Part shown: piece by piece, positions 15,088 to 16,660 of the stretch
Layout of the letters: the number at the start of each line of letters is the position of its first letter
Position numbering within the stretch: the first letter of the stretch is position 1
NCBI GenBank assembly: GCA_002163155.1
Contig: MAAO01000006.1
Coordinates: 434,001 to 498,000 of the forward strand
Length of the DNA: 64,000 nucleotides
Direction of reading: 5' to 3'
DNA from: Halobacteriovorax marinus
Lineage (GTDB): Bacteria; Bdellovibrionota; Bacteriovoracia; Bacteriovoracales; Bacteriovoracaceae
Notes under the pieces: generated by a model
What the model saw: the letters and a program-made list of their open reading frames with translations, nothing else
The model's database searches: none
What the model was told of the DNA's origin: nothing
Made by a program: the position numbers and the translations under genes

Positions 15088-16463
15088 TATAGCCTCTCTA
15101 ATTGAAGATAGAGTTTAATATTCTTAAAAGTTTCTATTTCTGTATTGGAGGTGAATAGTCTTCCTAGGATAGGTAGGCGTGAGAGATAACTTAGGGAGCT
15201 TAATTCATTTTGAATTCCTCTATGTGATATGTTTACTACCTCTAGAGTTTTTTTCAATTTTATATTTAACCTAGAACTTGTTCTATTTGATGTTATTGAT
15301 GTTGTACCTGAACTTGTATTTGGCCTTGAGAGTTCAGTTTGTATATTTAGAAAGTATTGATCTCCTTCTTTTTCAATTAAAGCGGATACTTTTAAACCCG
15401 CAAACTTCCACTCAGTATAAAGATCATCTTTTAATTTATTTGAAAAAGGTATTTCACTTCCAATACTAAATTGACTCTTACTTCCAACTCGTAAAATAAT
15501 TTCAGGTGTGGCCATGGAGGACAATTTCACTTTTGTATTATTTATATTGACTTGGTTTTCACCAATGAACCCATTAAAATCCTTATTTATTAAGGAAAAT
15601 ACTTTTCCTGAGATTTTATGAAGACCCAATTGTAAAATATCTCTATTTGCAGATTCAGTGAGAATGAGTTTTGTCTTTAATCTATAATTTGGAAGCATTA
15701 GGGTTTCATTGACTCGAATGAGTTTTAAAGGAATATTTTTGAGCCAGAACTTTTGAATACCGACTAAATCGATTTTAGATTTTGGGATCGTACAGGTGAT
15801 AGGAAGTGTTTCAAATGTACATTTTACATTTGTTATTTTTCTTTTAATAAAGCTAGAGTAAATTTTTGACGCCAATATCTTTTTGAATGTTTTTGAAAAC
15901 CTATAGTGGTCGCTTAGTTTGAAAATCTTATCCTTCCTACTTTGTTTCAATTTCCAAACGATTGATAGTTGAGGGAAGTTTTCAACAAGATTACAAACTT
16001 TGATTTCACCATTTTTGATTTGTGAATCCAACCCTAAGGCACTTAACGAATAGTTTACGGACTTAAGTTCTCCTGCCAATTTCTTAGTCATAACAATAAA
16101 TCTAAACTCTTTCTGAGAGCTCTTTTGCCATACTTTAACTGTGCTTAGTCCCTGTTGCTTGGCCCTAATGAGAAGAGTTTTCTTGGTGCTAGAAAGCTTA
16201 GCTGAGATGATCTCTCTATTGCTAAGTGCGTAATTTTTAAGGTGATTTAGTTTAATTTGGTGATATTCCCCAATTCCTAGGTACTTTGTATTTTGCTGTT
16301 TAATACTGTTATTTCCACAACTTAGAGTGTTTGGAGAAAGGAAAGAGAAAGATAGGAGTATAATTATTTTGACAAGTTGGCCCTGGATGGGTAAAAAATG
16401 TCTTCGATATAAGAAATTATCAAATAAATTAGAATAGTTTTTGAAATATAGGGGAGATATCAT
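15087..16463 (-). CDS. CpaC/RcpA-type pilus secretin
   Basis: A protein of about 458 residues. The N-terminal pilus-assembly domain has IKLNHLKNYALSNREIISAKL and GLSTVKVWQ, as in CpaC/RcpA. The C-terminal secretin domain shows TPEIILRVGSKSQFSIGSEI, a Ser/Thr-rich lip segment, and the terminal LSRLPILGRLFTSNTE block. It would form the outer-membrane channel for the Flp pilus. The start is unsure: the only ATG giving an export signal (hydrophobic VKIIILLSFSFLS) is at 16463, and it shares a CATG with the start codon of the plus-strand gene at 16462. It has no Shine-Dalgarno. The frame stays open to 16550. This secretin is short, with few recognisable N-domains. Confidence 0.65.
   Translation of the reverse strand: MISPLYFKNYSNLFDNFLYRRHFLPIQGQLVKIIILLSFSFLSPNTLSCGNNSIKQQNTKYLGIGEYHQIKLNHLKNYALSNREIISAKLSSTKKTLLIRAKQQGLSTVKVWQKSSQKEFRFIVMTKKLAGELKSVNYSLSALGLDSQIKNGEIKVCNLVENFPQLSIVWKLKQSRKDKIFKLSDHYRFSKTFKKILASKIYSSFIKRKITNVKCTFETLPITCTIPKSKIDLVGIQKFWLKNIPLKLIRVNETLMLPNYRLKTKLILTESANRDILQLGLHKISGKVFSLINKDFNGFIGENQVNINNTKVKLSSMATPEIILRVGSKSQFSIGSEIPFSNKLKDDLYTEWKFAGLKVSALIEKEGDQYFLNIQTELSRPNTSSGTTSITSNRTSSRLNIKLKKTLEVVNISHRGIQNELSSLSYLSRLPILGRLFTSNTEIETFKNIKLYLQLERL
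16369..16397 (+). promoter_or_regulatory. Near-consensus promoter of the 42-residue gene
   Basis: TTGACA (16369-16374), 17-base spacer, TAAAAA (16392-16397). It lies about 65 bases upstream of the small gene, antisense to the signal-peptide region of the secretin gene. The -35 is a perfect consensus. Confidence 0.55.
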
Positions 16464-16590
16464 GGTATCTAATACAAGAGTTACAAAGAACAAAAGATCA
16501 AACAAGAAAGTTAAAGCTGGTTCAAGAAGAAAAGCGGCTAATAGAAACAAGGGAACAACTCCTAAGTTTGCAATTCACCAAGATAAATAG
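16462..16590 (+). CDS. Very basic 42-residue protein
   Basis: This small gene has a full set of expression signals. A TTGACA/TAAAAA promoter lies upstream, GGGGAG sits 5 bases before the ATG, and two terminators follow. The product has 42 residues with about 15 Lys/Arg and few acidic residues; its core is KKVKAGSRRKAANRNKGTTP, followed by KFAIHQDK. Such composition suggests RNA or ribosome binding, as in small ribosomal or ribosome-associated proteins, but I cannot name a family. It lies on the plus strand inside the minus-strand pilus operon, between the secretin and the gene at 16659. Constitutive high expression is inferred from the signals. Confidence 0.75.
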   Translation: MVSNTRVTKNKRSNKKVKAGSRRKAANRNKGTTPKFAIHQDK

Positions 16591-16600
16591 TCTTAGTGAT

Positions 16601-16630
16601 ATATAAAAGGTAGCTTCTGCTACTTTTTTT
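16601..16630 (+). terminator. Rho-independent terminator of the 42-residue gene
   Basis: Stem GTAGC/GCTAC (16610-16614 and 16619-16623) with TTCT loop, flanked by AAAAG and a run of seven T. It starts about 11 bases after the stop codon. Confidence 0.85.
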
Positions 16631-16634
16631 GTTA

Positions 16635-16660
16635 CGCTCACCTAATGGTGGGCTTTTTTT
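16635..16660 (+). terminator. Second tandem terminator
   Basis: Stem CTCACC/GGTGGG (one G-T pair, 16638-16643 and 16648-16652 region) with a TAAT loop, then C and seven T. It is directly behind the first terminator and touches the stop codon of the minus-strand gene at 16659. Tandem terminators suggest strong transcription that must not run into the pilus operon. Confidence 0.6.

Follow-up and report, generated by a model that had tools for sequence, protein, structure and literature searches.

Basic-protein gene between minus-strand pilus genes

The window, which is the whole stretch of 64,000 nucleotides of Halobacteriovorax marinus DNA analysed here, contains a short plus-strand gene set between minus-strand genes. 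A TadA/VirB11-type ATPase and a secretin lie to its left and pilus-type small genes to its right, those of the latter that were tested matching no Pfam family at cut-off. The frame translates to MVSNTRVTKNKRSNKKVKAGSRRKAANRNKGTTPKFAIHQDK, a 42-residue protein with 14 Lys/Arg against a single Asp/Glu and a pI of about 12, and is accompanied by transcription and translation signals of its own (Table 1). A preliminary description of this DNA had claimed a TTGACA-17-TAAAAA promoter, a GGGGAG ribosome binding site, a Lys/Arg-rich ATG-to-TAG frame, and two tandem terminators, and all are present, the last as two structures that each combine a hairpin with a T-run. The promoter was not listed by a general sigma-70 scan, because its −10 element is weak, and a general terminator scan of the plus strand listed hairpin 2 alone, without hairpin 1.

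Table 1. Features of the small basic-protein gene, in window coordinates.
Feature	Position	Strand	Remarks
Promoter, TTGACA, 17-nt spacer, TAAAAA	16369..16397	+	−35 at 16369-16374, −10 at 16392-16397
Ribosome binding site, GGGGAG	16451..16456	+	read from sequence
ORF for small basic protein, 42 codons plus TAG	16462..16590	+	ATG at 16462, TAG at 16588-16590
Terminator-like hairpin 1, GTAGC-TTCT-GCTAC, T7	16610..16630	+	sequence read directly
Terminator-like hairpin 2, GCTCACC-TAAT-GGTGGGC, T7	16636..16656	+	general terminator scan

On the opposite strand, the secretin frame lacks any ATG, GTG or TTG start codon between 16463 and 16150, and its signal-peptide-like segment (IIILLSFSFLSPNTLSC) begins near 16367. 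A rare start codon is one possibility for the secretin; the other is an ATG at 16463, in which case the two genes would overlap at the start codon of the small one. An antisense frame (ORF start 16550) that seems to carry the secretin on across the small gene was taken as a mirror of the basic codons rather than as coding sequence.

Conservation of the gene, its signals and its neighbours

Homologues of the small protein were found throughout most of Bdellovibrionota. A search with the single sequence was positive in 42 of 59 genomes, the window's own included (34/37 in the genus and family, 8/22 in other families of the phylum), and a 28-row profile detected the gene in 250 of 290 genomes drawn across the phylum. 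With a 34-row profile, 217 of 241 Bdellovibrionota genomes at least 90% complete were positive, with one copy per genome among the rows listed, so that conservation in relatives, which had been set as a check on the gene, is borne out. One taxonomic family that appears to be Bdellovibrionaceae-like (f6) carried the homologue in 28 of 31 genomes, including all 24 with completeness of at least 90% and contamination of at most 5%. The misses listed with the 34-row profile fall mainly in family f3, with a few in f11 and single genomes elsewhere. No homologue was detectable in any f3 genome listed (e.g., G038, G046, G053, and G062) and most other families of the phylum carry one; loss or replacement in f3 could be informative.

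Beyond Bdellovibrionota, homologues were detected in four other phyla, in 5/5, 39/40, 101/188, and 1/1 genomes. The third of these phyla, in which 87 of the 188 genomes gave no detectable homologue, is probably Myxococcota, and the AT-rich genus found in the 39/40 phylum suggests Oligoflexia. In a wider test, a multi-phylum profile was compared with 385 genomes at 98% completeness, drawn from other phyla as well, and matched 107 of them. Bdellovibrionota accounted for 97 of these, out of 100 genomes, and other phyla for 10, out of 285. Among the ten, nine matches are strong (E ≤ 2e-14) and one is weak (0.003); all nine strong ones fall in the same four phyla, with hardly any elsewhere among the 285 genomes. 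Second matches within a genome were rare (G238 with the 28-row profile; G673, G777, and G815 in the 101/188 phylum; G041 and G059, both weak, in the 385-genome search). The family is nearly always represented by a single gene, in most Bdellovibrionota and several other phyla.

The signals around the gene are retained along with it. TTGACA...GGTAAAAA is present in all five congeners, and a scan of a named species collection with a C-terminal pattern gave 159 matches, 150 of them confirmed. The best 80 of these served as family loci, and the closest relatives among them are Bacteriovoracaceae, Halobacteriovorax, and Bacteriovorax records. Across these best 80 of 150 loci, TTGACA occurs within 200 nt upstream in 77; of the 79 loci whose upstream DNA was long enough, 76 have it within 160 nt (shuffles expect 4.25). 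The best −10 is placed at a 17-nt spacer in 77 loci. An SD-like motif was found in 76 of the same 80, an ATG start in 79, and a downstream terminator in 52 (3.2 expected). In family loci L031-L110, CT precedes a perfect −35, and the −10 (GGTAAAA or GTTAAAT), at a distance of 17 nt, is weak yet conserved. The same promoter form yielded two pattern matches in 163.5 kb of genome, one being the small-protein gene. Taken with the homologues and the selection described below, this retention of promoter and terminator strongly supports the proposal that the gene is genuine, is transcribed on its own and encodes a conserved basic protein.

The neighbouring genes are less constant. Minus-strand homologues of the window's Tad genes lie on both sides in 74 of the best 80 of 150 family loci (77 on the left, 77 on the right), and seven loci from families f24, f8, f15, f12, and f20 have a divergently oriented TadA-like gene to the left. 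In six of these seven, metK is directly to the right, MetK and the secretin being confirmed by Pfam in one. At L168-L171 and L176, translations also show, in several families, a sigma-54-activator-like AAA gene after metK, about 1.6-3 kb to the right of the small gene, a placement by which the metK block seems conserved in its own right. Five loci from families f6, f11, and f18 have no window Tad gene nearby; judging from translations, an outer-membrane-type gene precedes the small gene there, and one of the five has a trigger-factor gene no more than 3 kb away. Within the 39/40 phylum, the gene is upstream of infC in eight of nine inspected f141 loci (Pfam IF3 in one), and at other loci it precedes a coaBC-like gene (Pfam in one). 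At L184, the genes upstream include EF-P (efp) and a radical-SAM gene. Because the neighbours differ outside the family (metK, infC, and others), the pilus context is probably an inherited position rather than a clue to function. The nesting of the gene antisense to a minus-strand pilus operon, as originally described, stands as a matter of position; as a meaningful context the operon is not supported, since the neighbours change between families.

Selection, codon usage, and predicted structure

Members of the protein family are mostly 41-55 residues long and very basic. Among 45 sequences of the window's taxonomic family, M1, S3, T5, R12, G20, R23, K24, G31, T33, P34, K35, F36, and H39 are invariant; in a 31-row multi-phylum set, S3, R12, K24, and T33 remain invariant and M1, G20, R23, and G31 are conserved in at least 90%. 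The C-terminus reads GTTPKFxIH in most members, GTTKSxKxLFxD in Bdellovibrionaceae-like genomes, and is GTTPVFPIHTPE-like in the 101/188 phylum. The invariant Gly and Thr residues beside Arg/Lys suggest, from the alignment, that the protein makes specific contacts. Members longer than 50 residues make up 20 of the best 80 of 150 family loci, and many of these have an AK/P-rich tail; the window protein does not. H1-like, Lys/Ala/Pro-rich long C-terminal tails after the conserved core are seen in Bacteriovorax-type members (L055, L062, L063, L066-L068, L079, L081, L084, L089, L091, and L103).

Selection on the small gene is purifying: dN/dS values between the window and four congeners are 0.055, 0.048, 0.128, and 0.268, and changes at codon positions 1, 2, and 3 across all genus pairs number 25, 32, and 95. 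AlphaFold, given 45 window and family sequences, predicted one confident helix spanning residues 6-29 (mean pLDDT 80.3), followed by a flexible low-confidence tail that contains the conserved GTTPKFxIH.

Codon usage was compared with 25 ribosomal-protein ORFs and 116 background ORFs from the window's own genome. Under background codon usage, the amino-acid-matched P for the small gene is 0.003 (0.002-0.015 for the four congener orthologues), and 74% of simulations under ribosomal-protein usage score no higher than the small gene. None of the 116 background genes scores above it, against 3 of the 25 ribosomal-protein genes, and its score per codon is 0.126, compared with −0.136 and −0.142 for tadA and the secretin. 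Its codons are therefore ribosomal-protein-like, which for a gene this short and with tables from one genome amounts to moderate evidence.

Database and literature searches returned little. Searches of PDB with the sequence and three profiles matched no ribosome chain and gave only one spurious hit (E 7.5), and Pfam, NCBIfam, PHROGs, and PADLOC yielded nothing meaningful; NCBIfam gave only spurious single-member models for any member, and PHROGs, PADLOC, and phage genomes gave no match bar one member with phrog_829 at E 0.099. The best Pfam candidate, DUF6254 (E 6e-4), was discarded, as it touches 1 of 34 members and is absent from a second Pfam table. A phage or plasmid gene was likewise rejected for lack of matches in the phage/plasmid, PHROGs, and PADLOC searches, and a structured RNA was rejected on zero Rfam families and on codon-position bias and dN/dS that show a protein. 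Full-text literature had no match to the motif letters, and no description was found in literature on Bdellovibrio and Myxococcus ribosomes and small proteins, in a scope that left most subscription papers and all preprints outside; in the passages of PMC11656739 that were searched the terms "ribosomal protein", "small protein", and "hypothetical protein" do not occur.

Candidate function and comparison with known systems

A protein that is tiny, basic, near-universal, and single-copy, with ribosomal-protein-like codons, its own promoter, and a distribution restricted to certain phyla, is best accounted for as a lineage-specific ribosomal protein. Extrapolating location and function from these traits, we think it rather probable that the product is a clade-specific small ribosomal protein or a permanent ribosome ligand. 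The narrower proposal has about an even chance of being right: an unrecognised structural ribosomal protein of Bdellovibrionota and at least four other phyla, with its helix in an rRNA pocket, for instance the one that bS22 occupies, and its GTTPxFxIH tail reaching a second site. Under the broader reading, the gene's own promoter would drive abundant synthesis, a Lys/Arg-rich helix of roughly 24 residues (6-29, in which R12, G20, R23, and K24 are conserved) would lie in an rRNA groove, and the conserved tail (GTTPKFxIH, or GTTKSxKxLFxD in Bdellovibrionaceae-like genomes) would make a specific contact with an adjacent site on rRNA or protein and stabilise the particle, in a manner comparable to bS22/mS38/eL41 or bL37. 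The predicted RNA- or ribosome-binding role of the preliminary description has indirect support from the single-copy near-universality, the codon usage, the helix and tail, and the place beside infC in one phylum. The near-universal, single-copy occurrence expected of a ribosomal protein is seen at 217/241 and 39/40 and is weaker at 101/188, and the codon usage expected of a highly expressed gene is found with moderate strength; the places beside infC and, at L184, near efp and a radical-SAM gene also speak for it. Against a ribosomal role, the gene in most groups is not beside ribosomal genes, and no ribosome chain in the PDB matches the protein. Absence from the f3 genomes listed and from 87 of 188 genomes implies that the protein is not indispensable everywhere or has diverged past detection. 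There is precedent for such proteins escaping annotation, as PMC10618245 describes bS22 and bL38 of Borrelia as small basic ribosomal proteins that were unannotated and were found by cryo-EM.

Among the alternatives, the least unlikely is a nucleoid-associated, H1-like protein, whose basic helix, together with the long Lys/Ala/Pro tail in Bacteriovorax-type species, would bind DNA and compact the chromosome. The strong basicity agrees with it, as do the AK/P-rich tails that many of the 20 longer loci (of the best 80 of 150) encode; the H1-like tails of some members fit DNA binding as well, and some of the bacteria concerned are predators whose nucleoids are condensed in the attack phase. However, the tail is missing in most members, the invariant S3, G20, G31, and T33 and the GTTPKFxIH motif suggest specific over general contacts, and the gene is single-copy in the rows listed, whereas H1-like proteins are often variable. 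Next in order, and again unlikely, comes a ribosome-associated non-structural factor made in quantity, such as an RNA chaperone or a factor for ribosome assembly or hibernation. The codon-usage and conservation data and the infC gene downstream in one phylum suit it too, but the protein has only about 42 residues and no domain, and near-universal single-copy spread would be more typical of a structural protein.

The position between Tad genes in 74 of the best 80 of 150 loci, and the TadA-like neighbours in seven loci from five further families, could also mean that the protein regulates or assists the Tad pilus. This is highly improbable, as the protein is kept in f6, f11, f18, and other phyla without a nearby Tad gene and its codon score differs from those of tadA and the secretin (0.126 against −0.136 and −0.142); a pilus function was rejected because the neighbours switch from family to family. 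Finally, the shortness of the gene and its absence from the curated libraries searched would be compatible with an ORF arisen by chance or with a locus for non-coding RNA, to which we assign a negligible probability, since protein-level conservation, dN/dS, and the signals in the family loci exclude it.

That most genomes of one phylum, and genomes of related phyla, keep a single-copy protein found in none of the libraries and structures searched suggests that predatory bacteria and their relatives have a core component not yet on record, most likely one belonging to the translation machinery. Homologues occur in cultivable and genetically tractable organisms, namely Bdellovibrio and, probably, Myxococcus, and a ribosomal protein would have to enter models of those organisms' ribosomes. 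The case also indicates that annotation still misses short genes of core function. The protein family is most likely new, having no name in any family database searched, and its kind, the small ribosomal protein, is already known.

Several known systems offer comparisons with a small ribosomal protein of this kind. H1-like nucleoid proteins such as AlgP resemble the AK/P-rich tails of Bacteriovorax-type members; the conserved core of the small protein is of another kind, and the tail is usually absent rather than shared by all members (20 of the best 80 of 150 loci exceed 50 residues). TIGR04137 of NCBIfam, which we take to be a clade-wide small basic protein of the PVC group thought to be ribosomal, differs in that members of the present family give no NCBIfam model beyond spurious single-member ones. 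bTHX (Thx) is likewise a tiny basic small-subunit protein limited to some bacterial lineages, with no detectable relation to the small protein (hhalign probability 0.1%; no Pfam/NCBIfam match). The restricted spread also recalls bL37 and bL38, small extra large-subunit proteins confined to some phyla, and bL37 was found by structure and mass spectrometry. The same route led to bL38, according to PMC10618245; the present family differs from both in having no PDB match. The closest likeness in form is to bS22/mS38 (AURKAIP1/COX24, DUF1713) and eL41, which are likewise tiny, very basic, single-helix ribosomal proteins. As set out in PMC10618245, bS22-type proteins sit in an rRNA pocket (h2, h27, h44, and h45) and were missed in Borrelia annotation. 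The small protein has no detectable sequence relation to bS22/mS38 (hhalign probability 0.3%; no Pfam/NCBIfam match), and the conserved C-terminal tail of the GTTPKFxIH type is a feature of its own family that sets it apart from bS22/mS38 and eL41.
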